20,994 bases of DNA. Origin: a virus. Positions within the stretch are counted from its first letter, which is position 1. Every line of letters starts with the position of its first letter. The stretch spans positions 1 to 20,994 of the IMG/VR virus record IMGVR_UViG_3300021445_000005. One strand, given 5' to 3'. A model generated the notes under the pieces. The model was not told the origin of the DNA and searched no databases. It worked only from the letters and a program-made list of their open reading frames with translations. A program made the translations under genes and the position numbers. This document shows positions 3,790 through 20,218 of the stretch, piece after piece.

Positions 3790-4971
3790 TCAGACCGTCA
3801 GACGGCAGGCCAGCTCAGGGTAGAACGCGGCGACGCCATAGAGAATGTCGAGCCGGCACGGCGTCACGTCGTTGTTGATGTCGTAGGCGCGCACGATCCG
3901 GATCGAGATATTTTTGTACGTCTCGCGCGCCGCGAAATCGACACCCTCCGGCAGCTCTTTTGGCACCGTGACCAGGCCGAACGCATCGCGCACGAACCCG
4001 AGGTTTTTCGCGAGCACACTGTTTGCCGCGCCGCTGATAACGCTCACGGCTGCACCGTTCGCCGGTGAAGCGCTGACCGTCTGATAAGCGCCCGACGTCA
4101 CGATCGCCGGCGAGATCGTCAGCGTCGCATTGCCGGCGCCGTCAGACGTGACCGGGCCCGTGATCACGAAATTCGCCAGCGCGCCGGTCGACTGGTAATT
4201 GACCGGGTTAATCGCGTTGACACCGGCGAACGTGACCACCTCGCCGCCGTTGAACAGCGTGCGATTGGCCGTCCACCCATTCGTGAGGATCGAGGATCCG
4301 GTCTGGTTGGCGCCGTTGACCACACCCGTTCCGGCATAATTGCCGCTCGTCAGGGTGTTGACATTTTGATCTAAGAAAATTTCAAAGTTCGCGATCGCGG
4401 CCAGGAAACCCTTGAGCGCAGGCTCGGCGACGCTGCGGACATAGAGCGTCGAGAGTGCTGCAGCCATCGACCAGTTCGTCGCGGCGTTGATGACCAAGCA
4501 GCGGCCATCCTGCGGCACCGCGCCCTCATCCATGCGCTGACCGACAGCGGCAAGGAACGTGAAATTGTTGGGAACCGTCGCCGGCGTTCCGACCTCGTTA
4601 TTCACCTGGCTATAGAGCGCGGCCAGGTCGAAATCGACCTTGTTGCCGAGAGCGAGCGCGGCACCTTTGAGGTAGCGCTCTGAGAACTCCTCGACCGTCA
4701 GCGTGAGCTCTTTCGCCGAGAACAGGAACCCGACGTGTTTCTGATTCGAGATCGTGATGCTGGTCGACGGCTCGTTGATGTTCTGGATCACCAGCGCGGC
4801 GCCATCGCTGACCGTGAAGCGGTTGGGCTTCCGGACGGTGATCGTGTCGCCGATTTTCACGAACTGGTTTTCAAACTGGCGATTCACCTTGCCAGCGAAA
4901 ACGAGATTGTTCTCGAGCTGCACGAGCGTCTCTTTTGTGATGACGCTCGGCGTCAAAAGGGATTGTGACAT
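3790..4971 (-). CDS. Major capsid protein, P22 gp5-like coat
   Basis: 393 aa, close to the ~430 aa of the P22 coat. The N-terminal part, with an FENQFVKIGDTITVRK-type segment (about 34-48) followed by a helix-rich EFSERYLKGAALALGNKVD region (about 94-112), is typical of P22-type coat proteins with an HK97 fold; the middle contains GRCLVINAATNWSM (about 152-165). Residues ~215-315 form a Gly/Thr/Asn-rich beta segment (NGANQTGSSILTNG and following), where an inserted I-domain-like part would sit; the C-terminus ends in a compact FYPELACRLTV. It builds the icosahedral shell around the scaffold. No good SD is seen at ATG 4971, odd for so abundant a protein; the long structured leader (4972-5302) may matter. 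Residues 40-53 recur identically in the 195-aa protein at 12937-13524. Confidence 0.88.
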   Translation of the reverse strand: MSQSLLTPSVITKETLVQLENNLVFAGKVNRQFENQFVKIGDTITVRKPNRFTVSDGAALVIQNINEPSTSITISNQKHVGFLFSAKELTLTVEEFSERYLKGAALALGNKVDFDLAALYSQVNNEVGTPATVPNNFTFLAAVGQRMDEGAVPQDGRCLVINAATNWSMAAALSTLYVRSVAEPALKGFLAAIANFEIFLDQNVNTLTSGNYAGTGVVNGANQTGSSILTNGWTANRTLFNGGEVVTFAGVNAINPVNYQSTGALANFVITGPVTSDGAGNATLTISPAIVTSGAYQTVSASPANGAAVSVISGAANSVLAKNLGFVRDAFGLVTVPKELPEGVDFAARETYKNISIRIVRAYDINNDVTPCRLDILYGVAAFYPELACRLTV

Positions 4972-7085: not shown

Positions 7086-7286
7086 TCAGCTCGAGCTCGG
7101 CGCCGCTTTTTGCGCTTTGAGCGCCTGGCCGAGCAGCTCGCGGATCACATGCGCCAGCGGCACAGCGCGCGCTGCCGCGAGATCGCGGAGCTCATTGAAC
7201 ATCGCCGGCTCGAGCGCGACCGACATTGTCTTATACTGGCCGGAATCGAACCCTTGCGCGGCCACTCGCCGGTTAATCGTTCGCAT
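7086..7286 (-). CDS. Ribbon-helix-helix DNA-binding protein (CopG/Arc-like), 66 aa
   Basis: The protein has the RHH layout: a short strand KTMSVALE (about 19-26), helix 1 PAMFNELRDLAAAR (about 27-40), turn AVPL, helix 2 AHVIRELLGQALK (about 45-57), and a short Ala/Ser tail. RHH proteins such as Arc, Mnt and CopG bind DNA as dimers through the paired strands in the major groove. The start ATG 7286 overlaps the stop of the 802-aa gene (TGATG), so it is probably translationally coupled. It lies immediately before a control region with tandem 11-mers, palindromes and a terminator, which makes autoregulation or control of scaffold/coat transcription a natural guess. Basic N-terminal residues (RTINRR) may add DNA contacts. 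Confidence 0.7.
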   Translation of the reverse strand: MRTINRRVAAQGFDSGQYKTMSVALEPAMFNELRDLAAARAVPLAHVIRELLGQALKAQKAAPSSS

Positions 7287-9694
7287 CAGAACTCAGGCTC
7301 ACCCTCGACCGGCACCAGGCGGAAATTCGCCGGCGGATAGATCGCCTCGCCGTTGCGCTTGAGCAGCAGCACCGGCTGGTCGGAATAAGTGACGTAATTG
7401 TGAGTGACCGCGTCGAAGCCGCCGGCCTCGAGCACCTTTCTGATCTCGGCGCGCTCGATCGTGCCCCATCGCGAGACAGGCTTGCTATCGTTGAAGGCCT
7501 TGAGCGCGGCCGCCGGATCGCCGCCCGCCTGCTCGAGGAATTGCCGCGCCTCGTTGGCGATCGGATTATCCGGCAGCGCCGCCGGGTTGTAGCGCGAGAA
7601 CTGGTCGAGATACCGCGTCGCATCAATCCCGGCCTGGTGCATCGTCTCAGATGCTGCGCGCCACATTCCATGAGAATCGAGCTCAGGCCTCAGCTGCCGC
7701 TGAGTTAGCGCCGTGTCCATATAGAGCGACTGGCCCGAGCGATCCTCGAGGCTAGGATGCGCGAGCCATTGCTCGTTGAGTTTCTGCCGCACATAGTCGC
7801 TCTGCTCGCGCAGCGGCCGCTCCCAGGCAAGAGTCCTGGCCGGATCGACGTAGAGCTCGCCCTCGTAAAGGTGCCCCTGCTTATCGTGCGCCCGCCGGAT
7901 TGCGGTATCGAGCGCCGACCAGGCGCGAATATCAGCTTGCGAATTGTCAGCGCTCAGCGGCCCGCTTCTTCCGGCCAGGTGCGAGAACGCCCGCACCGCC
8001 TGCTCATTATCCGCCAGCGGCGCCAGGTCAGGATCGAGGCGCAGCATCGCCTCGACCTCGCCAGGCTGGAAAAACTGACCCACGCCAGGCCGCCGCGCTT
8101 TGTCGATCACGCTCTTTGCGCGCTCAGTGGCGCGAAAATAATCGCGCTGCGCAGCGTCGCGCGCATACTCCTCGCCGGTGCCGCGCGCCTCGCCCCAATA
8201 AAGACCATAGGAAAAAGTCTGGTTGCCCTCGCCGGTGCCGATCTTCCCCATATCCGGCCGCGTGAACTCAGCGCCCGAGCCGTGAAAGACGCGGATCGGC
8301 TCAGGTAAGACGTCGTAACGCGAGCGCGGCTCGAGCGCGGCGAGCTCGCCCTTATCCTCGGCCTGGATCTCAGAGAACGATCGCCGCGGATAGCCAGGCG
8401 GCCGCCCGCCCGTGCGCTCCTCGAGGCCTTCGCCGGCGAGCTGGTTGATCCGCTCGAGGCGCGGCGTCGCTTCCGCGCTGTTACCCCCGAGGCGCTCGAC
8501 GATCGCATTGCCAGGCAGCCGCACCGATCCGGCGACGTCCTCGAGCAGCGCCGGCATCGCGTTGAGGCCTTCGCGCGCGATCGCGCCGCCCGCCCGCAGC
8601 GCCGGCACATAGCCGGCGGCCACAGAGCCCGCCATGCCGATCGCCGGCAGATACTCGCCGCGCTGCGCCGAGGCCCAGGCATCGCGCAGCAGCGGGATCC
8701 CCGACGCATCGAGCGCGGCGTTGCCGGCGTCGGCAGCGGTGCGCGGTTGATAGGCCGACCAGCTGCCGTCGGCGCCCTGCACCATCGGCCGCACCTGGTC
8801 GGCCTGTTGCTCGTGCAGCCAGCGCGCATAAGCGCTCGCCTCGTCGGCCGATCGGAAGGTGCCGAAATTCTCGCCGGTGCGCTGGTAGCGATCGCGCGCC
8901 TCGGCCGAGCTCAGCTGCCGGCCATCGCCGACGCCAGGCACCAGCACCTCGCCGCGATCGGTGCCGATCCCGATCGAGCGGGTTGTCGAGATCGAGCCGT
9001 CGGGATTGTTGACCAGCGGCCGGTTGTAAATGTCGAGATTGCCGCCGGCGACCAGGCCGTCGGGCCGCAGCGGCAGCGCCGCGGCGAGCGGATCCTCGTC
9101 AAAGATCGGTTCATAATCGACCGGCACCAGGCCGCCGGCGCCGACCGTGCCGCCGTCGTGAAACCACTGGCGCCCCTGCTCGTCGACGACGGCGCCCGAG
9201 CGATCGTCATAGCGCATAGGCGCCGCCCTGGCGCCCCAGGTGTAGGCCTCGGCGCCGTTGAGCGCACCCTCGCCCACCTCGGCCGTCCCGAGCGCTGCAT
9301 CGCGCCCCGCGGCCATTATGCGCGCGGTCGGAATTTGGTAGCGGCCTGGCATCGCGCCGACCAGACGAGACTCGGCGAGATAATCGAGCATTGCCTCGCC
9401 GCCGCGCGGGATCCATTGCGCCGCATTGCCTACGCCGGCGCCGAGCATTGGCGTCCCGAGGGTTGCCAGCGCGCCCCAGCCGCGCGAGCGGCCGCTTAGG
9501 ACGTCGCCGTAATCGCGCAGATAATTGCCGCTGAGACTATCGAGCCCGGCCATCGAGGCGCGGCCTGCGCCCTGCAGCGCGGCCAGCATCCCGTTCGGGA
9601 ACAGCTGGCGATAGAGCCCGGCCTCCTCGCGCGGCAGCACCTCCTCGCCGACCTGCAGCACAGCAGGAACGTCGCCCGGCCCGAGATCCGACAT
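7286..9694 (-). CDS. Large virion/ejection-type protein with ADP-ribosyltransferase-like domain
   Basis: I choose ATG 9694 (802 aa), 1 base after the upstream stop; a TTG at 9739 would overlap the 28-aa gene. Residues ~70-120 are Gly/Ala-rich and amphipathic. Around 219-244 is the stretch NLDIYNRPLVNNPDGSIST, followed by a VPG.GDG...S..EA...Y..TG..FG.F.....A..YA..LH pattern to ~296, a module I associate with structural proteins of tailed phages. Residues ~465-800 match the polyvalent-protein ADP-ribosyltransferase-like pattern: VFHGSG with His 471, then SYGLYWGE (495-502), GHLYEGEL (607-614), WERPLREQSDYVRQKL (about 624-639), AGIDATRYLDQ (about 688-698) and a final VTYSDQPVLLLK strand. It probably enters the cell with the DNA, where the ART domain could modify host proteins. 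Activity is unproven; the catalytic Glu cannot be assigned with certainty. Confidence 0.72.
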   Translation of the reverse strand: MSDLGPGDVPAVLQVGEEVLPREEAGLYRQLFPNGMLAALQGAGRASMAGLDSLSGNYLRDYGDVLSGRSRGWGALATLGTPMLGAGVGNAAQWIPRGGEAMLDYLAESRLVGAMPGRYQIPTARIMAAGRDAALGTAEVGEGALNGAEAYTWGARAAPMRYDDRSGAVVDEQGRQWFHDGGTVGAGGLVPVDYEPIFDEDPLAAALPLRPDGLVAGGNLDIYNRPLVNNPDGSISTTRSIGIGTDRGEVLVPGVGDGRQLSSAEARDRYQRTGENFGTFRSADEASAYARWLHEQQADQVRPMVQGADGSWSAYQPRTAADAGNAALDASGIPLLRDAWASAQRGEYLPAIGMAGSVAAGYVPALRAGGAIAREGLNAMPALLEDVAGSVRLPGNAIVERLGGNSAEATPRLERINQLAGEGLEERTGGRPPGYPRRSFSEIQAEDKGELAALEPRSRYDVLPEPIRVFHGSGAEFTRPDMGKIGTGEGNQTFSYGLYWGEARGTGEEYARDAAQRDYFRATERAKSVIDKARRPGVGQFFQPGEVEAMLRLDPDLAPLADNEQAVRAFSHLAGRSGPLSADNSQADIRAWSALDTAIRRAHDKQGHLYEGELYVDPARTLAWERPLREQSDYVRQKLNEQWLAHPSLEDRSGQSLYMDTALTQRQLRPELDSHGMWRAASETMHQAGIDATRYLDQFSRYNPAALPDNPIANEARQFLEQAGGDPAAALKAFNDSKPVSRWGTIERAEIRKVLEAGGFDAVTHNYVTYSDQPVLLLKRNGEAIYPPANFRLVPVEGEPEF

Positions 9695-9695
9695 T

Positions 9696-9782
9696 TCAGC
9701 GCAGGTGCAGGAACGGCTTGAGGAATACCAGCGCGGCAAACAGCCCCATGACGATCAGCACCGCGCGCACCTCGAGAGGCAT
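9696..9782 (-). CDS. 28-aa single-pass membrane microprotein
   Basis: The frame ATG 9782 to TGA 9696 encodes MPLEVRAVLIVMGLFAALVF and eight more residues, ending in Arg. Residues ~8-21 are continuous hydrophobic; a basic residue at each end could fix the topology. It overlaps the stop of the 42-aa gene (TGATG) and ends one base before the 802-aa gene's ATG, so it sits exactly in a coupled chain. That spacing is the main evidence that it is real. Possible roles are a holin-like, ejection-associated or regulatory leader peptide; none can be shown. Confidence 0.5.
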   Translation of the reverse strand: MPLEVRAVLIVMGLFAALVFLKPFLHLR

Positions 9783-9910: not shown

Positions 9911-10110
9911 CAGAGCTGCACCAGGTCGGTGCTCATAACCGTGACCGTGCGCTGCGCCGGCGGCCGGCCGACACCGCGCGTCGCGCGCAGCCGCTGCAGA
10001 TCCCCGTATTTGCTGCGCCGCTGGCGATTCGGCCGGAACCGCATCCCGAGCGCCGTCGCCCCAGCCCGCAGCATGGCGGCCGGCAGCAGCGTCATTGAAG
10101 CCTGTACCAT
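9910..10110 (-). CDS. Basic 66-aa hypothetical protein after portal
   Basis: I place the start at ATG 10110, which has a very strong AGGGGGG-type SD, so the gene overlaps the portal 3' end by 19 bases; ATG 10095 forms an ATGA overlap with the portal stop and is the alternative (61 aa). The first third is hydrophobic (TLLPAAMLRAGATALGM), the middle very basic (RFRPNRQRRSKYGDLQRLRATR), the end VTVMSTDLVQL beta-like. Position suggests a head-completion or minor virion protein; no recognised domain. Confidence 0.55.
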   Translation of the reverse strand: MVQASMTLLPAAMLRAGATALGMRFRPNRQRRSKYGDLQRLRATRGVGRPPAQRTVTVMSTDLVQL

Positions 10111-12425
10111 TGACCCCCCTGGTTGACGTAATAGTTGCCGTCGCGCGCGCGGCGGGCGCCTGGCGGCATCCCCCCGACGCCCTGGCCCAGCTGCTGCCCC
10201 CCCGCACCACCTGGCCCCTTCCCTGCTGCGCGCGCGGCGCTCAGCGCCTGCTCGAGCATGCGAACACCCTCGGCCAGCTCGCCGAGCGGCTGCCCGACCT
10301 GCTGCTCGTGCGCGATCTGCGCCTTTTGCATGATCCCGAGCAGCTTGGCCTCGAAATCCTTGTCGATCTTGTCCTGGCGTTGCGCCCGATCGGCCGCTTG
10401 ATCGCCCAGCACCTTGAGCATTTGCATGCGCTCGTTTCCGAGCTTTTGGAGCTGCTGTTTCAAGCCGGCGATCAGCGCCTGCACCTGCGGCGGCACGTCT
10501 TTCATGCTGCCATCGTCGAGCATGCCAGGCGGCAGCATCTTTGCGAGGCGCGTCGAGAGCTGGTCGGCGCCCTCCCAATCGGCGTGTTTTACGATCAGGT
10601 CGAGCAGGTTCGCGGCGATCTGCGGAGGGCAGACCTTCAAGAACGACAGCATATTGTCCCAGGCCTCGATCCGCCTGGTCGCGGCCGACGGGCCCAGCGT
10701 GACCGTCACGCCATACTTGCCGAGGGTCGGATTGTAAATTTTCGTCAGCTTGCCGCCCATCGTCGCGAGCCGCGCCTCGCCGACGCCCTTCGGCGCGTGA
10801 GGGTCGACCTGCACCTGCTCCTCTTGATCGTCCTCGCGCAGGATCGTGACGACGCGCTTTGTGTCGTAAACCTTGGGGATCAGGTCGACCAGGATCTCGC
10901 CGACGCGGCGCAGGCTGCGGCCGAAATTGTCGATGTAATGGAACGAGCCAATGTCGCCGCGCCGCTGCAGCTCGCGCAGCGCCTTGCCGGACTCGTCATA
11001 GACGCGCTCGCCGATCGTCGCGTCGAAGCGCAGCCCGGTCACGGCCATGAAATCTTGCGAGGCCTGCTGCACCTCGGCGATCACGCCCGCATTGGAGCCG
11101 ATAAAGGGTTGCCGCTGCGGCGGCGGCGCCGGCGCCCCGCCGGCCTCGACGTGGTTGTAAGGCAGGAAGGGATGATTCTTTGTGTTCGCCGTCCGCCAAA
11201 TATCCTCGAAACCCTCGATCTGGCCGAACTCGACGATATACGGAGCGCGCGGCTGCAGCGAGACGAGCTCGACGCCCAGCGTCCGATGAAAGTTATACAT
11301 TTGTTGCGGCGTCTTAGCCGCGCGAATGATCCCCGACTTTGTGACCTTGCCCTCGACGTCAGTCTCGTTGCCGATCATCTCGACCACCGGGATATAGCTC
11401 CCCGGCCAGTCGCGGCGCTCGAGCACCTCTTTTGCGCTGACCTTGTACCAGCGCACGACGGGAACTTGATCCTGGCGCTCGGCGACGATCTCGAGCTCTT
11501 TCGCGCGCTCGTCGAGCTCGTCGAAATATCCGACGTGACCATTCTCGAGCATGACGAGGCGTTTCTCATCGTGCTCAATTTCAAAATACTCGGCGATCCG
11601 GATCTCGGCCTCGTTGATCCAGTCTTTCATCAGCATATCGCCGACCGCGCTCGCGTCCCACGGGCAGGGATCAGCGTCGGGATATTCCTCCTCGAATTGC
11701 TCGCGCGGGATCATTTCAGAGATCACGCACCAGTGAGCGTCGGAGCCGTCGGGCATCTGGCGCGACGGATCCATGTAGACCGTGAAGCGGTTGCGGATCC
11801 GCTGAATCACGATCCGCTTGTTGAACGAGGCAGGCTCGTATTCGGTCAGGATCCGCAGATAACCCCAACCACCATCGACGCCCTGCTCTAAGAGCGTGTC
11901 ATAAGCAATATCGGCCTGGCTGGTGCGCTCGATATGACGGATCAGCCCGCGCATGAATTTCGCGACCTCGCGATCGCTGCGCTCGCCGACCGGCGAGATA
12001 TGGATCGCGGGCCGGTTCTCGCGCCCGTCGTTGACCACCTGGTTGACGAAGGTCGGCAGCTTATTGATGGTCAGCGTCGGCCGCTTGTCGATGTTGCGCG
12101 CCGCGACGACGCCCGCCGGCCACTGGCCGGATCCGATCTTGTGTTTCAGATCGTCGAGCGCCTCTTTCCGATTGTCGCTATCGTATTCCGCCGAGCGCTT
12201 GTGATTTTTGCGGATCCGCGCCAGCAGCTTTTGATCCTTGGCGTCATCCTTGGCGCCTTTGTCCGTCTCGTCGCCGGCGCGCTGCATCGTGTCGACCGGA
12301 TCATCGTCCTGCAGCGAGCCCTTGCCGCCAGCTTTCGCGGTCGGCATGCGGCGGTTCATGGCGCCGTCGACGCGCGGTAAGCGCACCCGCGGATCCTTCC
12401 GCGGTTTGGCAGGATCTTGAGCCAA
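10092..12425 (-). CDS. Portal protein, P22 gp1-like
   Basis: 777 aa, similar to the 725 aa of P22 portal. After a charged leader (1-65) come KRSAEYDSDNRKEALDDLKH (76-95), GQWPAG (~100) and RPTLTINKLPTFVNQVVNDG (~114-133), followed by NRPAIHISPVG, all typical of P22-type portals. The middle contains the wing/stem region; residues ~640-700 are a long Gln/Lys-rich helix (QALIAGLKQQLQKLGNERMQ), as in the P22 barrel, before a Gly/Gln-rich end. Portal forms the dodecameric DNA-entry ring, docking terminase outside. The start is TTG 12425: AAGGGG is 6 bases upstream, while the first ATG (codon 23) has no SD. The same leader pattern precedes small terminase. It is transcribed divergently from the zinc-ribbon cassette. 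Confidence 0.9.
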   Translation of the reverse strand: MAQDPAKPRKDPRVRLPRVDGAMNRRMPTAKAGGKGSLQDDDPVDTMQRAGDETDKGAKDDAKDQKLLARIRKNHKRSAEYDSDNRKEALDDLKHKIGSGQWPAGVVAARNIDKRPTLTINKLPTFVNQVVNDGRENRPAIHISPVGERSDREVAKFMRGLIRHIERTSQADIAYDTLLEQGVDGGWGYLRILTEYEPASFNKRIVIQRIRNRFTVYMDPSRQMPDGSDAHWCVISEMIPREQFEEEYPDADPCPWDASAVGDMLMKDWINEAEIRIAEYFEIEHDEKRLVMLENGHVGYFDELDERAKELEIVAERQDQVPVVRWYKVSAKEVLERRDWPGSYIPVVEMIGNETDVEGKVTKSGIIRAAKTPQQMYNFHRTLGVELVSLQPRAPYIVEFGQIEGFEDIWRTANTKNHPFLPYNHVEAGGAPAPPPQRQPFIGSNAGVIAEVQQASQDFMAVTGLRFDATIGERVYDESGKALRELQRRGDIGSFHYIDNFGRSLRRVGEILVDLIPKVYDTKRVVTILREDDQEEQVQVDPHAPKGVGEARLATMGGKLTKIYNPTLGKYGVTVTLGPSAATRRIEAWDNMLSFLKVCPPQIAANLLDLIVKHADWEGADQLSTRLAKMLPPGMLDDGSMKDVPPQVQALIAGLKQQLQKLGNERMQMLKVLGDQAADRAQRQDKIDKDFEAKLLGIMQKAQIAHEQQVGQPLGELAEGVRMLEQALSAARAAGKGPGGAGGQQLGQGVGGMPPGARRARDGNYYVNQGGQWYRLQ

Positions 12426-12625: not shown

Positions 12626-12940
12626 GTGACCGAGCCGCCGACTTACCGGATCCCGCGGCCGAGCCTATGCCCGAGCTGCGGCCACCTGTTGAACGCTGCA
12701 GGTATTGTCGACCCTCACGAGCCGACCTGGCGCGCGCCAGAGGGCGGCGATACGACGGTTTGTGCCGCCTGCGCTGCGGTGCTCGTGTTTCAGCCCGACC
12801 TATCGCTGCGCAACGCGACGCCGCTCGAGCTCGCCGAGCTGCTCGCGGATCCCGACGTGCTGCGCACGATCGCGGCGATCAGAGAAGGCTGGCGAGTGCT
12901 CGGCCGACCTGGCGACAACCCGCGCAGCCGGAAGAACTAG
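12626..12940 (+). CDS. Zinc-ribbon protein, 104 aa, on the opposite strand
   Basis: GTG 12626 is preceded by AGGAG at 9 bases. CPSC at 15-18 and CAAC at 46-49 form a two-knuckle zinc ribbon; the region between has DPHEPTW and acidic/Gly residues. Residues ~62-95 are helical (TPLELAELLADPDVLRTIAAIREGW), followed by a basic end. Such small zinc ribbons bind nucleic acid or act as adapters. It is one of the few plus-strand genes and lies inside a long minus-strand unit, like a moron. Its TAG overlaps the TAG of the convergent 195-aa gene in a shared CTAG. Function unknown. Confidence 0.7.
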   Translation: MTEPPTYRIPRPSLCPSCGHLLNAAGIVDPHEPTWRAPEGGDTTVCAACAAVLVFQPDLSLRNATPLELAELLADPDVLRTIAAIREGWRVLGRPGDNPRSRKN

Positions 12941-13524
12941 GCGCGGCCGTCCTCGCGTTTGCCGCGCAGGCAATGCCGGCAGATATAGACGCCATCCGAC
13001 CACTGAAAATCGTGTTGACCTGGTGCGCAGGCCACCGGCCGGCGGTTCTCGCGCTGGTAGATCTCGCGCTGCGCCCGCTGGATTGCCTCGGCATCGTCGG
13101 CCGCTCGAGGCTTTGGGCCCTCGGCCATCGCGACCGGCTCGAGCTCGGCGATCGCCTCGTCTGTTGACCGCGGCCCCGAGCCGATCGGCCGCGTCTCGAG
13201 GGTGAAGCGATTCGGCTTACGAACGGTGATCGTGTCGCCGATCTCGCCCTCGGCCACAAAGTACCGCGGCAGCTCGACCGAGCTGCGCAGCAGACGGTTG
13301 AGCGCGCGCATGCCGGCCTCGTAATCCTCGAGGCAGAGCGGCAGCGTAACCCAGCGCCGCATATAGCGCGCGACGTCCTCGCGCAGCATCGTGCGCTGGC
13401 TTTCGCTCAGCCCGTCGGGCGCCGGCGCCGGCCAGCCGCCACGCGGCCGCAGGTCGACCAGGCGCTCGCACCGGCCGCACATATCGCCGAGCCGCAGCTC
13501 GAGACAGCGCGCGTCGCACTTCAT
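12937..13524 (-). CDS. Cys-rich 195-aa protein carrying a coat-protein segment
   Basis: ATG 13524 overlaps the methyltransferase stop (ATGA). Two Cys clusters frame it: C3, C7, C16 and C19 (CDARC...CGRC) and C166, H171, C182, H184 and C185 (CAPGQH...CRHC), possible zinc sites. The middle (about 40-90) is helical and basic. Residues 95-108, IGDTITVRKPNRFT, are identical to coat residues 40-53; the 42 coding bases differ at 5 sites, all third codon positions. It may bind coat or its partners, or derive from an old duplication of coat sequence. I do not recognise the rest. The gene converges on the plus-strand zinc-ribbon gene. Confidence 0.7.
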   Translation of the reverse strand: MKCDARCLELRLGDMCGRCERLVDLRPRGGWPAPAPDGLSESQRTMLREDVARYMRRWVTLPLCLEDYEAGMRALNRLLRSSVELPRYFVAEGEIGDTITVRKPNRFTLETRPIGSGPRSTDEAIAELEPVAMAEGPKPRAADDAEAIQRAQREIYQRENRRPVACAPGQHDFQWSDGVYICRHCLRGKREDGRA

Positions 13525-14075
13525 CCCGCGAGCCTCGCCGGCTTGACTGCCGTCAGCACGAACACCAGCACCGGGTTATGAGGCCCGGCCGGCGTCTCTT
13601 GCCGCGCCTCGACCACAAAATCGCCGCGGTAGATCGACCGAAAATCGCTCATCGGCGTATAGCCGACCTCGCCATAACGCACCTGCTCGAGAAAGGCGAA
13701 CGACTCCATTTGCAGCGCCCGCTTGTGCGAGGGATCGCCCCACACCCACGGCGAGCCGAACCCCGGACAGGTGCCGCACAGCACACCGCCCGGCTTGAGG
13801 ATCCGCCAGAACTCCTCGAATTGAGCGAAGAAGAAAGCCGCGTCACCTTGCGCGCCGGTATGCTCGAGCACCTCGTAAGCGTGAATCTCATCCCAATAGT
13901 CCGAGGCTGACCAGGCGAACGGCAGCACCTCGAGATCGGCGACAATGTCGGGCTCGTGCGACGGCTCTTTGTCGAGCGTTGTCAGGTTCGACCAGTCGCG
14001 GATCCCGTTGACCTGGATATGCCGCTGCCGCCGGCGACCGCAGCCGATCAAGAGCTCGCGTCGTTGCTCGGCCAT
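13521..14075 (-). CDS. Class I SAM-dependent methyltransferase-like protein
   Basis: 184 aa, start ATG 14075 behind GGGGAAAG. It has the Rossmann-type signature: LLIGCG (8-13) as motif I, Asp 35 at the end of the second strand (LTTLDKE), DIVADLEVLPF (43-53), HAYEVLEH (65-72) and FWRILKPGG (89-97). This class includes small-molecule, protein and nucleic-acid methylases; there is no DNA-methylase (D/N/S)PP(Y/F) motif, so a DNA adenine or cytosine-N4 target is unlikely. The C-terminus after ~100 is short and aromatic-rich. It starts inside the 3' end of the 68-aa gene (28-base overlap). The substrate is unknown; phage glycan, protein or nucleoside methylation are all possible. Confidence 0.75.
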   Translation of the reverse strand: MAEQRRELLIGCGRRRQRHIQVNGIRDWSNLTTLDKEPSHEPDIVADLEVLPFAWSASDYWDEIHAYEVLEHTGAQGDAAFFFAQFEEFWRILKPGGVLCGTCPGFGSPWVWGDPSHKRALQMESFAFLEQVRYGEVGYTPMSDFRSIYRGDFVVEARQETPAGPHNPVLVFVLTAVKPARLAG

Positions 14076-14254
14076 TGTGCTTTCCCCATTGCGGCGGCCA
14101 GGCGCTCACAGTCGAGCTCGGCAGCATCGAGATCCTTCCGCGCCATGCTCAGGCGCCAGCGGATCGAGCGCAGCCATTGCTCGGCGCTCTGCTGCGCCTC
14201 GTTGCGCGGCACCTCTTGCTCGACGCTCGGCCACCGGATCGGCTCAGCGGCCAT
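14048..14254 (-). CDS. 68-aa helical hypothetical protein
   Basis: ATG 14254 lies inside the 3' end of the 65-aa gene. Residues ~18-58 form one amphipathic charged helix (NEAQQSAEQWLRSIRWRLSM; KDLDAAELDCERLAAAM), possibly a coiled coil, with a Trp/Pro-containing start. No family is recognised. It is tightly coupled with both neighbours in the accessory run. Confidence 0.6.
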   Translation of the reverse strand: MAAEPIRWPSVEQEVPRNEAQQSAEQWLRSIRWRLSMARKDLDAAELDCERLAAAMGKAQWPSNDASS

Positions 14255-14441
14255 TGCTATCCCCTGGATCGTCGGCCTGCGCCGGCTGCTGCTGCTGCGC
14301 CCGCTGCGCCGCCAGGCAGGCGATCGCCTCGCCCCGCGTCGCGTGCTCGTGACCGCATGACCACACCGGCCGCTTGTAATCCGGCACGTTGCCGGGCCCG
14401 GCGGCCGCGATATAGCCGCGCAGCTCGAGCGACTCTTTCAA
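14244..14441 (-). CDS. 65-aa protein with possible C-H-H-C metal site
   Basis: The start is TTG 14441, overlapping the preceding stop as TTGA; AAGGGG 5 bases upstream supports it and no ATG fits. Residues ~27-42 read WSCGHEHATRGEAIAC, a Cys-x-His-x-His-x7-Cys arrangement that could hold zinc; a Gln-rich end follows (AQQQQPAQ). Unknown role in the accessory run. Confidence 0.6.
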   Translation of the reverse strand: MKESLELRGYIAAAGPGNVPDYKRPVWSCGHEHATRGEAIACLAAQRAQQQQPAQADDPGDSNGR

Positions 14442-14593
14442 TCGCGCCCCTTGGGCGCCGGCCGGCGCTTCTCGAGCTTGGCCGACTTGCTGGGCCGGCC
14501 GCGGCCGCGCTCTTTCGGACTGACCGGCGTCGTTGGCGCCTGCTGCGCCCGCAGCGCCGCCTTGCCGCCTGGCGAGGCCTTGGTGCGCGCCAT
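14438..14593 (-). CDS. 51-aa basic peptide with AT-hook-like core
   Basis: ATG 14593 overlaps the previous stop (TGATG). The protein is strongly basic and contains KERGRGRPSKSAK (about 27-39), whose GRP core resembles an AT-hook, a minor-groove binder of AT-rich DNA. In a GC-rich phage this could target host or special AT-rich sites. The flanks are Ala/Pro/Arg/Lys-rich and probably disordered. A chance basic linker is the alternative. Confidence 0.55.
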   Translation of the reverse strand: MARTKASPGGKAALRAQQAPTTPVSPKERGRGRPSKSAKLEKRRPAPKGRD

Positions 14594-14703
14594 CAGTAGC
14601 CGCTCTTTCCCTTGCCGCCCTTCATCATGGCGGCCATCGCGTTGCCCTTCGGCGCCGGCTTGGCGGCCGGCTTGGCTTTGCCCTTGCCCTTTTTGCCCTT
14701 CAT
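14593..14703 (-). CDS. 36-aa Lys/Gly-rich peptide
   Basis: ATG 14703 follows GGGAG at 6-7 bases. The product begins MKGKKGKGKAKPAAKPAPKG, continues through a short NAMAAMM patch and ends GKGKSGY. It is histone-tail-like in composition, and so likely binds nucleic acid or is disordered. It is coupled to the AT-hook-like peptide by TGATG, so two basic DNA-binding-type peptides are made together. Confidence 0.5.
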   Translation of the reverse strand: MKGKKGKGKAKPAAKPAPKGNAMAAMMKGGKGKSGY

Positions 14704-14717
14704 CGTCGACTCCCGTG

Positions 14718-15017
14718 CTAGGCCGCGCGATCGCGCGGCATCCCGAACGTCTCAGGCAGCGCAGCCTTGCGCGCCGCCAGCGTCTCAGCGCTTACGATCA
14801 CCCCGCGCCGACCTGGCTGCAGCCCATCCTTGATCGCGATCAGCAGGATCTCGACCGCTTTCTCGCGACGTGCGGCGAGCTCGCGGCCCCCCTTGCCGAC
14901 CTCGACGATCACATAAAACTCGACGCGGCCATGCGCCATCGAAACCCGCTCAGCGTCGCCGTCGAGCTCGGCCTCGTAATAGCGGAACAGGTTGTAAGCC
15001 GGCCGCGGCCCGCTCAT
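14718..15017 (-). CDS. 99-aa hypothetical protein of the accessory run
   Basis: ATG 15017 overlaps the stop of the 49-aa gene (ATGA). It is mixed alpha/beta: a beta stretch RVEFYVIVEVGKGG (about 31-44), helix ELAARREKAVEILLIAIKDG (46-65), then VIVSAETLAARKAAL (73-87). No Cys. The compact order suggests a small globular binding protein. Not recognised; anti-defence proteins often have this size, but nothing specific is seen. Confidence 0.65.
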   Translation of the reverse strand: MSGPRPAYNLFRYYEAELDGDAERVSMAHGRVEFYVIVEVGKGGRELAARREKAVEILLIAIKDGLQPGRRGVIVSAETLAARKAALPETFGMPRDRAA

Positions 15018-15163
15018 TCGCCATCTTCCGACGTCGGCAGGTTGAGCCGCTTTTTGATCGAGCTCAGCCGCTCCTCGACGGCCAGCAGGCCGGCGATCGC
15101 CAGCAGCGCGACGAGCAGCGTGCAGATCTGCAGCACCACCACCACGACGAGGAGATAGATCAT
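15014..15163 (-). CDS. 49-aa single-pass membrane protein
   Basis: ATG 15163 to TGA 15014. Residues 2-28 are an unbroken hydrophobic segment (MIYLLVVVVVLQICTLLVAL onward), followed by a charged helix EERLSSIKKRL and a short polar end. The topology is probably N-out/C-in by the positive-inside rule. It overlaps both neighbours by ATGA, which strongly supports it. It could be a holin, a small membrane sensor or an inhibitor; no endolysin is nearby to favour lysis. Confidence 0.6.
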   Translation of the reverse strand: MIYLLVVVVVLQICTLLVALLAIAGLLAVEERLSSIKKRLNLPTSEDGE

Positions 15164-15270
15164 CGCCGGCGCCCCCGGTGCGCGCGCGCAATGTCGAGCG
15201 CCGCCACCACGACGACGTAGAGCGTCACGAGCGCGAACAGCCCGACGACGCCGCCCTCGAAAACCGTCAT
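15160..15270 (-). CDS. 36-aa single-pass membrane protein
   Basis: The real start is ATG 15270, overlapping the stop of the 76-aa gene (ATGA). Residues ~6-26 form the membrane span (GGVVGLFALVTLYVVVVAAL), followed by a basic tail (ARAHRGRRR) expected to stay in the cytoplasm. It is encoded directly before the second membrane microprotein, so the two may act as a pair. Confidence 0.6.
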   Translation of the reverse strand: MTVFEGGVVGLFALVTLYVVVVAALDIARAHRGRRR

Positions 15271-15497
15271 TCCTGGCCCCCGACGAACCGCGCCACCGTC
15301 TCGCTTTCTGGCTTCACCTGGTCGCGCTCGAGCGCGCGCCCCTCGAGGTGCAGCAGCCACATTTGCTCGGCCTGCGCCCAGCTGACCCACAGGTGATCGC
15401 TCGCGCGCCGAAAGCCGGCCGTCAGCTTGTCCTGCACGAAACCGATCGCCTTGAGCGCGGCGATCATTTCCCGCTCTTGCTGGTAATCGAGGCTCAC
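15267..15497 (-). CDS. 76-aa hypothetical helical protein
   Basis: The start is GTG 15497, overlapping the previous stop as GTGA, with AGGGG 6 bases upstream. Mostly alpha-helical, with several aromatic residues at DHLWVSWAQAEQMWLL (about 34-49). It contains no Cys. Unknown function. Confidence 0.6.
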   Translation of the reverse strand: MSLDYQQEREMIAALKAIGFVQDKLTAGFRRASDHLWVSWAQAEQMWLLHLEGRALERDQVKPESETVARFVGGQE

Positions 15498-15799
15498 GCC
15501 CGCCCCTGCGGTTCCATGCCGCTGAGCATTACCGCGCGCGCCTCGTCGAAGTGCTTGCGCAGCCGCGCCGGATCCTTGAGCGCGAGCTGCAGCGTCTCCC
15601 ACACCCCGGGATCGAGCCGATAGGTCACGGTGCGCCAGGTCAGCGGCTCCCCGTCATCGCCGACCGTGCCGTCGGGCATCTTGCGCAATAGCGCGATCCC
15701 GACCGCGCCGTCATCCTTGCGGCGCACGATCGCGACGCGCTCGAGCAGCTCAAAGCCGACGTTGCCCGCCGCGAGCTCGGCAAATTCTTCCTCGGTCAC
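15494..15799 (-). CDS. 101-aa hypothetical protein
   Basis: The start is GTG 15799, overlapping the previous stop (GTGA) and preceded by AAGGGG. Residues ~10-60 are beta-rich with VGFELLERVAIVRRKDDG (14-31) and a DGTVGDDGEPLTWRTVTY stretch (43-60); the end is helical (VWETLQLALKDPARLRKHFD). It looks like a small globular alpha/beta protein. Family unknown. Confidence 0.6.
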   Translation of the reverse strand: MTEEEFAELAAGNVGFELLERVAIVRRKDDGAVGIALLRKMPDGTVGDDGEPLTWRTVTYRLDPGVWETLQLALKDPARLRKHFDEARAVMLSGMEPQGRA

Positions 15800-15993
15800 T
15801 CGAGCCCCTTCATGCAAAAGGCCTCGATCTGGCCGGCGATCGCGAGCGCCTCGTCGACCGTGATCCCGCGGCGCGGCTTGAACCCGATCGCGCCGACGTC
15901 GGTCGCGTCGGGATCCGGCCGCGAGAATTGCTGCGCCTGCATGAAGCAGTCGAAACGCAGCCGGGCCCGCTCGAGATCGGTCACGGCGCACAT
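15796..15993 (-). CDS. 65-aa hypothetical protein
   Basis: ATG 15993 is the only ATG after the in-frame stop at 16039; its SD is weak, so GTG 15984 is an alternative. It contains DLERARLRFDCFMQAQQF and a PRRGITVDEALAIAGQIEAF helix. Two or three Cys, no zinc pattern. First of the overlapping chain after the Acb2-like gene, 49 bases downstream of it. Confidence 0.5.
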   Translation of the reverse strand: MCAVTDLERARLRFDCFMQAQQFSRPDPDATDVGAIGFKPRRGITVDEALAIAGQIEAFCMKGLE

Positions 15994-16042: not shown

Positions 16043-16321
16043 TCACGGCAGCCCGAGGGTTGCGGCCTTGACCGCCCACATTGCGGCGTCCTCGGCATGC
16101 GTCTGCGCCAGCGCGACCAGCCGGTTGAGCTCGCCGACGTCCTCGTGCCCGAGCACCCGCGAGGGATCGCGCGCGATCGCGCGCAGCTCGTGGCAATAGT
16201 CGACGAAGGCCGCGGCCATCGTTTTCAGCTCGTTGACGTGCGGCGCCTGGTTTGGGTTGAAGCTGATACGCACCCGGCGCTCGCCGAGCGACAGCGGGCG
16301 GCCCGCTTGGCCTTCCGACAT
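16043..16321 (-). CDS. Acb2-like candidate anti-CBASS cyclic-nucleotide sponge
   Basis: 92 aa with SD AAGGGG before ATG 16321. The layout matches what I know of the Acb2/Tad1 helical-hairpin family: a short start with RISFNPNQAPHVNELK (18-33), a long helix AAAFVDYCHELRAIA (36-50), a loop, and a C-terminal helix with RLVALAQTHAEDAAMWAVKA (67-86). The AxxTHxExAxMWAVKAAT end is the most characteristic part of that family. Acb2 proteins assemble as hexamers and sequester cyclic di- and trinucleotide messengers, blocking CBASS. It is the first gene after terminase, a common place for phage counter-defence genes. Motif recognition is by eye; binding is not shown. Confidence 0.65.
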   Translation of the reverse strand: MSEGQAGRPLSLGERRVRISFNPNQAPHVNELKTMAAAFVDYCHELRAIARDPSRVLGHEDVGELNRLVALAQTHAEDAAMWAVKAATLGLP

Positions 16322-16379
16322 AGGTATTCCCCTTGTGACTCTCCGCGGCCGAGCCTGGCGCCGGCGGCGTAAAGAACCG

Positions 16380-17873
16380 TTAAAGCGTCATCCAGTCGCT
16401 CGAGGCGCTGCCGCCGGTGCGCGCCTCGCCCCGGCGCTCGCTCTGCTTGGCGATCCGCGGCGGTTTGACGTGCTGCAGGCCACGGCCGAGGAGCGAGCAG
16501 ACGTCGACCCCGTCATCGTAGCGCCCGGCCGGAAACCGCGTCAGCTGGCCGAGGAGCTCGCTTTTCCACGGCAGCGGTGCGGCCGGCAGGAACACCTTTC
16601 CCATGCTCGCGAGCGCCTGGAAGGAGCGGGCCCGCGTCGGCTTGTCGCCGATCGAGGAGAGCCACTCGAGCCGGCAGAAGGCACGGCGATCGTTCATCCG
16701 ACGCAGCAGGAACGGCTCGACCGCCTTGCGGATCGGCCCAGCCTCGCCAAACCAGATCAGCGGATCGTGCGCCAGGATCAGATCGCATTGCCGCTCGATC
16801 CAGACGTCGGTTGCCGCCTGGTCGCGCCACCAGTCGACGACGTAAACATTCGACCAAGCATCTATGGCAAAAACCCCGTGCTCGGTGTAGTCGCCGGCGC
16901 CGTCGGTCGCGGCGTAGTCTGAGGCGCCGTAATAGACCAGGTCGGCGGGAAGGTCTTTCCACTCGCCGAACCAATCGAGGTGAAAGTAATCGCCCTCGAG
17001 CGCGGCCGGCTGCTGCTGATAGAGCGCGTTCCAGGCGCGAGCGTCCCGCTTTGCGTCGAGCACCATTTCCTCGGTGAACCATTCCGGCCAGAGCCGCTCG
17101 CCGACCTGGCGCCCGAGCGGATCGTCTGGCTGCGCTTCCATCGGGATCGACAGCAGGTGCCAGAGCCCCGACTCTTTCTCGAGCACTCGGCCGGCGAGAT
17201 CATCCTCGTGCCAGCGTGTCGTGACCAGCAGCCGCGCGGCGTTGGGCTTTAGCCGCGGCACGAAATCGTTGATGTACGCATCCCAGCAGCGTTGCCGGTA
17301 AATGTCGGAGTCCGCCATGCGCCGCGACGGGATCGGATCGTCGATCGAGCCCAGGTCGGCGCGGTGGCCGGCCATAGAGCCGAGGATCCCGCTGGCGTAG
17401 TATTGACCCCCCTCGGCCGTTTCCCACTCACCAGCGCCCGCCAGATCCGGCGCCAGGCCCGTTTCAAAGATCTCCCAATGCGCCGGATCGCGCACCGTGT
17501 TGCGCACCCGCCGGCCCCAATTCCAGGCCAGATCGTCATTGTGCGAGCAGCCGATGATCGAGTGCCGCGGGTTGCGGCCGACATACCAGCTCGGAAAGAG
17601 CCAGCTGCAATAAGTCGACTTGGCCGAGCCTGGCGGCATGCAGACCATGAGCCGGCCAATGTCGCGCCGCTCGAGCGCCTCGAGCGCTTCGATCAGCTTG
17701 CGGTGATGCAGCGCCGGCTGAAACCCGAGATCGAGCGCCTCAATGTACGCTGCTAGGCTCGTCTCCGCTGGCCCGAGTTTCGTCTCCCTCGAGCACAACT
17801 CCCGCAGCCTTAAGATCGTCCCATAATGCGGCGATCCCGGCGCGCACTTCTCTAAGGCTAAGGTTAGAAGCAT
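16380..17873 (-). CDS. Terminase large subunit
   Basis: 497 aa. Walker A PPGSAKST at 80-87, Walker B GSIDDP at 175-180, and motif III LLVTTRWHEDD at 215-225 form the packaging ATPase. The C-terminal RNase-H-like nuclease shows YGASDYA (about 315-321, Asp 319) and DDGVDVCS (453-460). This makes it the DNA-cutting, headful-style motor that docks on portal. The start ATG 17873 has AAGG at 6 bases and overlaps small terminase by 134 bases; a TTG at 17798 is the alternative. The C-terminal ~25 residues are basic/Ser-Gly and likely flexible. Packaging strategy (pac versus cos) cannot be read from this alone. Confidence 0.92.
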   Translation of the reverse strand: MLLTLALEKCAPGSPHYGTILRLRELCSRETKLGPAETSLAAYIEALDLGFQPALHHRKLIEALEALERRDIGRLMVCMPPGSAKSTYCSWLFPSWYVGRNPRHSIIGCSHNDDLAWNWGRRVRNTVRDPAHWEIFETGLAPDLAGAGEWETAEGGQYYASGILGSMAGHRADLGSIDDPIPSRRMADSDIYRQRCWDAYINDFVPRLKPNAARLLVTTRWHEDDLAGRVLEKESGLWHLLSIPMEAQPDDPLGRQVGERLWPEWFTEEMVLDAKRDARAWNALYQQQPAALEGDYFHLDWFGEWKDLPADLVYYGASDYAATDGAGDYTEHGVFAIDAWSNVYVVDWWRDQAATDVWIERQCDLILAHDPLIWFGEAGPIRKAVEPFLLRRMNDRRAFCRLEWLSSIGDKPTRARSFQALASMGKVFLPAAPLPWKSELLGQLTRFPAGRYDDGVDVCSLLGRGLQHVKPPRIAKQSERRGEARTGGSASSDWMTL

Positions 17874-18153
17874 CTTCGACCTTGATCCTGGCGCTCACGT
17901 CAGGCCGGCCCCAGCCGCGATCGAGGAGCAGCTCGGCCGCTCGCACCCGCGACGGTAGCGCCTTGAGCGCTTTCGTCCGCAAAGCCTTGACCAGCGTGTC
18001 GATCGCCTCGAGCGTATGCACCCGCGCCGCCTCTTTGACGTCGCGCGGCACGATCGGTCGGCCGCCAGGATTGCCGGACTTCCCCTTTGCAAAACGGCGC
18101 CCGGTCGGAGGGCGCCGCTTCGCCGCTGTTTTACCGCTGTTCTGAGCGGTCAA
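17740..18153 (-). CDS. Probable terminase small subunit
   Basis: 137 aa. Residues 21-33, FAKGKSGNPGGRP, are the basic Gly/Pro motif of DUF5681-type proteins often found next to large terminase; then come helices DVKEAARVHTLEAIDTLVKAL and SRVRAAELLLDRGWGRP, as in small terminases that recognise the packaging site. The end is acidic. The start is TTG 18153 with AAGGG 7 bases upstream; the stop of the 59-aa gene lies 9 bases away. The leader ATAAGGG(G)TCRGCATTG is shared with portal. The assignment rests on position and the motif, not on a known homologue. Confidence 0.7.
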   Translation of the reverse strand: MTAQNSGKTAAKRRPPTGRRFAKGKSGNPGGRPIVPRDVKEAARVHTLEAIDTLVKALRTKALKALPSRVRAAELLLDRGWGRPDVSARIKVEDASNLSLREVRAGIAALWDDLKAAGVVLEGDETRASGDEPSSVH

Positions 18154-18517: not shown

Positions 18518-18520
18518 ATG
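18499..18520 (+). promoter_or_regulatory. Perfect 22-bp palindrome over the PP-loop start codon
   Basis: CATGTCCTAA / TTAGGACATG pair perfectly with a 2-base centre, and the right arm ends with the ATG of the PP-loop gene. No SD is seen upstream of that ATG at normal spacing. It looks like an operator that also holds a -10-like CCTAAT/TAATCT, giving a transcript starting near the ATG, or an RNA stem hiding the start codon. Confidence 0.6.
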
Positions 18521-19360
18521 GAAAACACCCTGCCGAACACGATCAAAACCGAGCTCGAGAGCGGCCGTCGCGCCCTGTTCGTGCTCAATCACTCAGGCGG
18601 CAAAGACAGCCAGGCAATGACGATCCTGGTCGAGCGGACGCTGCGCGCCTGGCCGAACGCGATCGCCGTCATGGTTCATGCGAACCTGCCGGAAGTCGAC
18701 TGGCCCGGGATCGAGCAGCACATCAGGTCGAATCATCCCGGCCTGCGCCTCGAGATCTGCACCGCGCGCTGGCAAGACGGCAGCGAGAAACGGCTGCTCG
18801 ATATGGTCGAGCGCCGCGGAATGTGGCCCTCGAGCCAGCAGCGCTATTGCACCAGCGACCTAAAGCGCGGCCCGATCGGCGTTGTGATCCGCGGCCTGGC
18901 GAAGGAGCTCGGCGTTGATCTGGTGATTAACTGCAGCGGCGAGCGCCACGCTGAGAGCGACGATCGCGCGAAGCTGGTCGAGCTCGAGATCGACGAGCGG
19001 CTGAGCGTCAACAAGCGCTTTCAGCGCACCGTCTACCGCTGGCGGCCGATCCTGACCCTGACCGAGGCCGATGTTCGCCAGGTTGTCGCGGACGCCGGCC
19101 AGAAACTGCATCCCGCTTACGACGCCGGCATGAGCAGGCTTTCCTGCTGCTTTTGCATCATGGCGAAAAAGGCCGACCTGCTGACCGCGGCGCGGCTGCA
19201 GCCCGAGCTGGCCCGCCGTTACGGCGCCCTCGAGCGGAAGATCGGCCACACCATGAAGCAGCCCGCCGCCGGCGAGGCCAAGGTTTACCTCGACGAGCTG
19301 CTCGCCTTCGCCGCCCAGCCCAAGGCGCCGGCGGCCCCCGTACAACTGACCTTGATCTGA
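18518..19360 (+). CDS. PP-loop ATPase of the PAPS-reductase/DndC type
   Basis: 280 aa. NHSGGKDSQAMT (24-35) is the PP-loop that binds ATP and releases pyrophosphate. YCTSDLKRGP (110-119), GERHAESDDR (141-150) and RWRPIL.LTEADV (about 174-186) match the order in PAPS-reductase/DndC proteins, and HPAYDAGMSRLSCCFC (198-213) supplies Cys 210, 211 and 213; with Cys 111 these could hold an Fe-S cluster. DndC uses this chemistry for DNA phosphorothioation, but no dndA, B, D or E genes are visible. It is followed 9 bases later by a DpdA-like gene, so a role in making or loading a 7-deazaguanine or thio-modified base is plausible. The start ATG 18518 is inside a palindrome, without SD. Substrate unknown. 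Confidence 0.8.
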   Translation: MENTLPNTIKTELESGRRALFVLNHSGGKDSQAMTILVERTLRAWPNAIAVMVHANLPEVDWPGIEQHIRSNHPGLRLEICTARWQDGSEKRLLDMVERRGMWPSSQQRYCTSDLKRGPIGVVIRGLAKELGVDLVINCSGERHAESDDRAKLVELEIDERLSVNKRFQRTVYRWRPILTLTEADVRQVVADAGQKLHPAYDAGMSRLSCCFCIMAKKADLLTAARLQPELARRYGALERKIGHTMKQPAAGEAKVYLDELLAFAAQPKAPAAPVQLTLI

Positions 19361-19369
19361 GGCCCGACG

Positions 19370-20218
19370 ATGGAACGCACCGCAGTTTATGGCTTGCCGC
19401 TCACCCCGCGGCACCTGCTCGAGCAGCTCGCCGGCGCCTCTTTTTGCGTCTCTTACGCGACGCGCAAAGACCTCGGCTCACAGCTCGACGACGCGATCCG
19501 CCTGGTCGGCGCCGACGGGATCCTGCTCGTTGATAACGGCGCGTTCAGCCTGCACAAGCAGGGGATCAGCGCGCGAGAGGAGTCTTACCTCGAGGGTTAC
19601 GAGGCATGGGCGGCCGAGATCCTCGAGCGGTGCCCGCAGGCGATCGCCGTCATTCCCGACGTGATCGGCGGCACCGAGGAGGAGAACGGTCAGCTGGTGC
19701 GCGAGACGCTGCTCGATCTCGACCGCGCAATGCCGATCTGGCACATGCACGAGAGCCTCGATTACCTGCTCTATCTTTGCGAGAGCTTCAATTACGTCGG
19801 CATCGGCAGCTCAGGCGCCTACTGGAAACCCGGAACCCCGGACTGGCATGCGCGGATCGCCGAGGCCTTCGCCGCGATCGACGCTTGGGAGCTCGAGAGT
19901 GAGGGCGCCTATATCCGCCCGCGGCTGCACATGATGCGCGCCCAGGCGCAGGCCCACCTTTACCCGTTCGACAGCAGCGACTCGACCAACGTCGCGGTCA
20001 ATCATTGCCGGTACAAGGCCGAGGGCGCCGGTCACGTCGGCCGCATGGCCGAGCGCGCCGCCGCGAAGATCGTCGCCGCCGCCGGGCCCGAGGCCGAGCA
20101 CCAGGCCAAACGCCCGCTGCTCGATCACCTGGCGATGAAGGCCTGGCGCGAGGAATTTTATGCCGAGCTCGCCCGCGATCGCCGGCCCGTTCAACTCAGC
20201 CTGGAGCTCGCGGCATGA
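19370..20218 (+). CDS. DpdA/TGT-like DNA guanine transglycosylase candidate
   Basis: 282 aa, SD GAGG at 7 bases. Motifs fit the phage DpdA/tRNA-guanine-transglycosylase fold: LLVDNGAFSLHKQG (52-65) near the base pocket, AVIPDVIGG (93-101), MHES (126-129), YVGIGSSGA (142-150), RPRLHMMRA (183-191) and YPFDSSDSTN (198-207), where LHGLG and yP.DS.DST-type patterns occur in the family. Asp 55, 201 and 204 are candidate acidic residues. DpdA swaps guanine in DNA for preQ0/preQ1-type bases and shields phage DNA from restriction enzymes. No preQ0 synthesis genes (folE, queD, queE, queC) are in the window, so the precursor would come from the host or elsewhere in the phage. Exact subfamily not assigned. 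Confidence 0.7.
   Translation: MERTAVYGLPLTPRHLLEQLAGASFCVSYATRKDLGSQLDDAIRLVGADGILLVDNGAFSLHKQGISAREESYLEGYEAWAAEILERCPQAIAVIPDVIGGTEEENGQLVRETLLDLDRAMPIWHMHESLDYLLYLCESFNYVGIGSSGAYWKPGTPDWHARIAEAFAAIDAWELESEGAYIRPRLHMMRAQAQAHLYPFDSSDSTNVAVNHCRYKAEGAGHVGRMAERAAAKIVAAAGPEAEHQAKRPLLDHLAMKAWREEFYAELARDRRPVQLSLELAA

Follow-up and report, generated by a model that had tools for sequence, protein, structure and literature searches.

The window analysed here is the entire 20,994-base virus record. Its minus strand carries, in order, genes for a DUF5681 protein, the terminase large subunit (TerL), a 92-aa hairpin protein, a series of short ORFs, the portal protein, a large protein, a scaffold protein and the major capsid protein. 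TerL (497 aa, 16380..17873, minus strand) was assigned by phrog_38 (E 1e-82) and by TIGR01630, which scored over its cut-off. The DUF5681 gene (17740..18153, minus strand; PF18932, E 3.6e-7) precedes TerL and overlaps its start. DUF5681 homologues also lie ahead of TerL in several relatives, and the protein is possibly the small terminase. The next large gene downstream encodes the portal protein (10092..12425, minus strand; phrog_156, E 2.7e-118). No near-identical phage DNA was found in the phage collection.

The hairpin ORF (16043..16321, minus strand) begins with an ATG 58 bp past the TerL stop with no gene in between, in agreement with the first-pass annotation, which had placed it as the first gene after the terminase. 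The intervening gap (16322..16379, minus strand) contains a Shine-Dalgarno-like AAGGGG ahead of the ATG, and no terminator-like or promoter-like site was called within it. The codon-position GC of the ORF (0.74/0.47/0.88) resembles that of neighbouring phage genes (0.66/0.49/0.82 for terL and 0.68/0.40/0.82 for the portal gene).

Between the hairpin gene and the portal gene lies a run of short ORFs (12937..15993, all on the minus strand). Those nearest the hairpin gene occupy 15796-15993, 15494-15799, 15267-15500, 15014-15163, 14718-15017 and 14593-14703, and those nearer the portal gene occupy 14438-14593, 14244-14441, 14048-14254, 13521-14075 and 12937-13524. A convincing family match was absent among those scanned. 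The hairpin gene had been described as heading a run of tiny coupled genes; the run is present, but its first ORF starts 49 bp past the hairpin-gene stop and is therefore not overlapped, whereas the next two ORFs overlap at GTGA.

Several other features of the window deserve mention. The ORF at 12937-13524, which encodes a 195-aa protein ahead of the portal gene, contains the peptide IGDTITVRKPNRFT (13199-13239, minus strand), and the identical peptide occurs in the major capsid gene (4811-4851, minus strand). The coding DNA is similar at both sites and the two proteins otherwise differ. The repeat may reflect either a partial duplication or a short motif that both proteins have. An 817-aa protein encoded in the portal-to-scaffold interval (7286-9739, minus strand) gave only a sub-threshold ART-PolyVal match (E 0.022). 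On the plus strand at 18518-20218, divergent from the packaging operon, two genes stand in succession, the first PAPS-reductase-like (PF01507, E 5e-10) and the second TGT-like (phrog_887, E 3e-31); they may form a DNA modification pair of the 7-deazaguanine type. Locus L081, from an otherwise different phage that likewise has a hairpin gene between TerL and portal, encodes a TGT-like protein with 77.6% identity to that of the window.

The 92-aa protein matched PF24729 (Acb2/Tad1 hairpin) with an E-value of 1.1e-10 and 42 bits against a curated gathering cut-off of 27 bits, with residues 22-88 aligned to profile positions 3-57 of 58. This score indicates that the match is not due to chance, and PF24729 matches were absent from 14 control genomes. 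No other Pfam match of note was obtained. The Acb2 proteins of T4 and of the PaMx type also match PF24729, as do all 10 members of a sequence set (A1). The sole PHROG match of note was phrog_717 (E 8.5e-6), which also takes in the tested Acb2 proteins from T4 (E 4.8e-32) and of the PaMx type (E 1.5e-28). When a profile was built solely from relatives of the window protein (A2), its top PDB match was T4 Vs.4/Acb2 (7UQ2, E 6.1e-5), and profile-profile comparison with an Acb2 alignment by hhalign gave a probability of 97.4% (E 1.6e-11). Acb2 was reached by profiles only; a single-sequence phmmer search of the PDB returned no relevant match. PADLOC and NCBIfam returned no match. Identity is 21% to T4 Acb2 and 15% to PaMx-type Acb2.

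An AlphaFold2 monomer model built from 58 aligned sequences, with rows taken from annotated phage records excluded, has helices at residues 12-16, 27-50 and 62-87 and no strands (pLDDT 90, pTM 0.79). The Acb2 protomer consists of a short N-terminal helix and two long helices (PMC10419184, PMC12043709), and the modelled fold matches this type and not the Tad1 type. In a library of predicted viral structures, the top two matches were Acb2/Tad1 hairpin proteins (E 5.8e-4 and 5.9e-3). A fold search of the PDB did not discriminate for so simple a hairpin: 7UQ2, at Z 7.3, was level with DgkA and designed bundles. Solved Acb2 chains were among the PDB matches, but unrelated hairpins matched about as well, so the fold is consistent with membership of the family and is not proof of it. 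The first-pass annotation had proposed an Acb2-like protein, to be checked by a search for the Acb2/Tad1 domain and by fold prediction; the profile score well above its cut-off and the helical hairpin predicted at high confidence bear this assignment out. It had also relied on an FNP motif and an AxxTHxExAxMWAVKAAT ending. FNP is found at residues 21-23 and the ending within the C-terminal helix (ALAQTHAEDAAMWAVKAAT), but the spacing had been given with one position too many before TH.

We next compared individual residues, using T4 Vs.4 as the reference. This protein binds cGAMP as a hexamer through a pocket comprising Y8, H11, K23, R79 and F82, and its hexamer is lost when L29, A66, A73 or A77 is mutated (PMC10097602). 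T68M lowers affinity in T4 Vs.4/Acb2 (PMC12657230). In the window branch, K23 corresponds to K33 (62/62 sequences) and R79, by a conservative change, to K85 (62/62). The interface residues A66, A73 and A77 correspond to A72 (62/62), A79 (62/62) and A83 (61/62), and T68 to T74 (60/62). H11 is not kept in the window protein, and the stacking residue F82 is replaced by T88. Y8 aligned with F21 when intermediate prophage sequences were included. This equivalence is likely rather than settled, because the alignment without the intermediate branch placed Y8 at E14. At the position of the pocket tyrosine, nine of nine Acb2 proteins have Tyr, and Tyr or Phe is found in 22/22 sequences of a bacterial-genome set, which was obtained by a profile search of 397 genomes from one order (that of Camelimonas), 22 of which contained hairpin genes, and was supplemented with four further loci. 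Every protein of this set keeps the pocket lysine, and every one read through has Lys or Arg at the R79 position and Thr at the T68 position. Taken from these alignments, F21, K33 and K85 are predicted pocket residues, and A72, A79 and A83 are predicted to line the hexamer interface.

With uncertain N-terminal positions left out and redundancy reduced, mean conservation at nine functional positions was 0.91, a value reached by 3 of 50,000 random draws, compared with 0.57 over all compared positions. Most relatives were gathered with patterns around MWAVK, and conservation of the second helix, including A72, A79 and A83, is therefore partly a product of selection and inflated. This bias does not touch K33 and F21, which lie outside the patterns.

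In a tree of 51 sequences, the window protein fell in a group of 25 (support 100/93) apart from the tested Acb2 proteins (T4/PaMx); the tree has few columns, which makes its deeper order uncertain. On account of this separate, well-supported group, we assign the window protein to the hairpin superfamily and describe its architecture as that of Acb2, without counting it as Acb2 proper. A third branch of the superfamily, with a YRxLS start and an MWAVKHxT end, occurs at prophage-like loci (L135-L148) in the order of Camelimonas; it has an intermediate place and links the tested Acb2 proteins with the window branch. The window branch itself was found at no fewer than 534 places in viral contigs, at 26 bacterial genome loci and in 151 phage records, mostly of Flavobacterium phages. 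This abundance contrasts with the description of Acb2 as relatively rare and confined to specific phage groups (PMC11722364).

The genomic setting identifies the hairpin gene as accessory. It was absent near all 66 viral relatives of the window TerL, within stretches of up to 5 kb on each side, some of the contigs being short. The gap between TerL and portal genes is 3,955 bp in the window versus −33 to 2,507 bp (median 291 bp) in the 36 relatives with an alignable portal. Together, these observations show that the region holding the hairpin gene and the small genes beside it is a variable accessory slot, and the absence near TerL relatives is as expected for a counter-defence cargo gene. Hairpin genes of the window branch recur beside terminases of different families, on the same strand and often abutting them (viral loci L001-L092). 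In L081 and L030, the hairpin gene lies between portal and a TerL of another PHROG. Among non-redundant hairpin loci, 20 of 77 had a detectable TerL no more than 3 kb away, in every case with both genes on one strand, and for about 14 of these the distance was at most 450 bp. If genes were placed at random in a 45-kb genome, one or two would be expected within 450 bp; this figure is rough, and related phages do not count as independent cases. Other members reside among recombination genes, between YqaJ and RecT in L013 and near ERF and an exonuclease in L012. We rejected a conserved homologous neighbourhood, as relatives of the hairpin gene mostly lack the neighbours it has in the window, though terminases of other families recur beside them. 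Regarding the earlier proposal of a counter-defence locus, the accessory position stands, and the neighbouring tiny genes may form a counter-defence island. The terminase-portal accessory slot is in any case a practical place to seek more counter-defence genes.

Overall, we consider the 92-aa product to be a stand-alone Acb2-type hairpin protein that most probably acts as a homohexameric sponge for cyclic oligonucleotide immune signals, a reading that builds on the family membership, hairpin fold, conserved pocket and interface positions and accessory status described above. Protomers would pair and then form the homohexamer, and near the protomer junctions the aromatic F21 and the basic K33 and K85 would hold a cyclic oligonucleotide, such as the cyclic di- and/or trinucleotides of CBASS. 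Binding would be stoichiometric, with the signal left uncleaved, so that effectors such as phospholipases and nucleases would stay off and the infected cell would survive long enough for phage production. The gene may be expressed with terL from the packaging transcript. Phages that lack acb2 escape CBASS via mutations in capsid genes (PMC10419184), and production together with the late genes would thus suit a defence triggered by assembly. An anti-CBASS role is a plausible specific form of this function; candidate ligands are cyclic dinucleotides, cyclic trinucleotides and gcADPR. Extending this reading to the whole FNP/MWAVKAAT branch (more than 500 viral contigs), we suggest only tentatively that it forms a lineage of sponges that prefer a ligand of their own and are positioned repeatedly at the terminase/portal junction for timing with capsid-triggered immunity.

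The alternative to which we give most room keeps the sponge architecture and changes the target: whereas T4 Acb2 binds CBASS dinucleotides, the window protein might bind only cyclic trinucleotides, the Thoeris signal gcADPR or another nucleotide. The differences at the F82 and Y8 positions and the separate branch are consistent with this possibility, as is the finding that Tad1 and Acb2 bind different signal sets (PMC12043709). The basic pair K33 and K85 is nevertheless kept, and most canonical Acb2 proteins also lack the aromatic residue at the F82 position (Ala in 8/9). On balance, we regard a different target as possible but improbable.

We think it quite unlikely that the protein instead puts the hairpin fold to use in DNA packaging, as an accessory that resembles a small terminase or associates with the portal. 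Such a role would explain the adjacency to TerL, which the relatives repeat, and the HK97 small terminase was among the weak fold matches. However, the absence of a hairpin gene from the up to 5 kb covered on each side of all 66 relatives of the window TerL indicates that packaging does not need one, and the DUF5681 gene already sits ahead of TerL. The mobility of the hairpin gene, with members also among recombination genes, fits a cargo gene and argues against a component of the packaging machinery. Less probable still is a hairpin gene that has decayed or become neutral and serves no function. Nothing direct supports decay, beyond the protein being accessory and diverged, and the intact ORF, the ribosome-binding site, the phage-like codon-position GC and pocket and interface positions that stay conserved across 60-plus diverse relatives all count against it. 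Because Acb2 and Tad1 sponges are already established, another member is no surprise; its value lies in its origin in a large branch on which we found no experimental report in the literature searched, so that a tested member would reveal if sponges of this branch work by the known mechanism too.

Compared with known systems, the window protein most closely resembles Acb2 (T4 Vs.4, PDB 7UQ2; PaMx33/PaMx41-type p26, PDB 8H2J/8IXZ). Both are stand-alone small proteins, and they share the helix layout, Pfam domain, PHROG, pocket lysine, basic Arg/Lys and small interface residues. They differ in overall sequence (15-21% identity), in the Phe in place of the pocket Tyr, in the Thr at the F82 position, in branch, and in the N-terminal motif, which is LGExRVxxxFNP in the window protein. 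With the anti-Thoeris sponge Tad1, the window protein has in common the C-terminal helical hairpin domain, as PF24729 is defined by Pfam. By its description, Tad1 also carries an N-terminal four-stranded beta-sheet ahead of the hairpin, which sets it apart from the strandless model of the window protein, and only 22 in-frame sense codons separate the ATG from the upstream stop, leaving no room for such a sheet. The closest counterparts with names are the hairpin proteins of phage EcP1, Flavobacterium VK58 and an uncultured Caudovirales (A0A6J5LWM4), which belong to the window branch, are 34-38% identical to the window protein and share its FNP and MWAVKAAT/MWAVKALT-type motifs. Their genes differ in neighbourhood, lying in early or recombination regions, and are annotated only as hypothetical or domain-containing.
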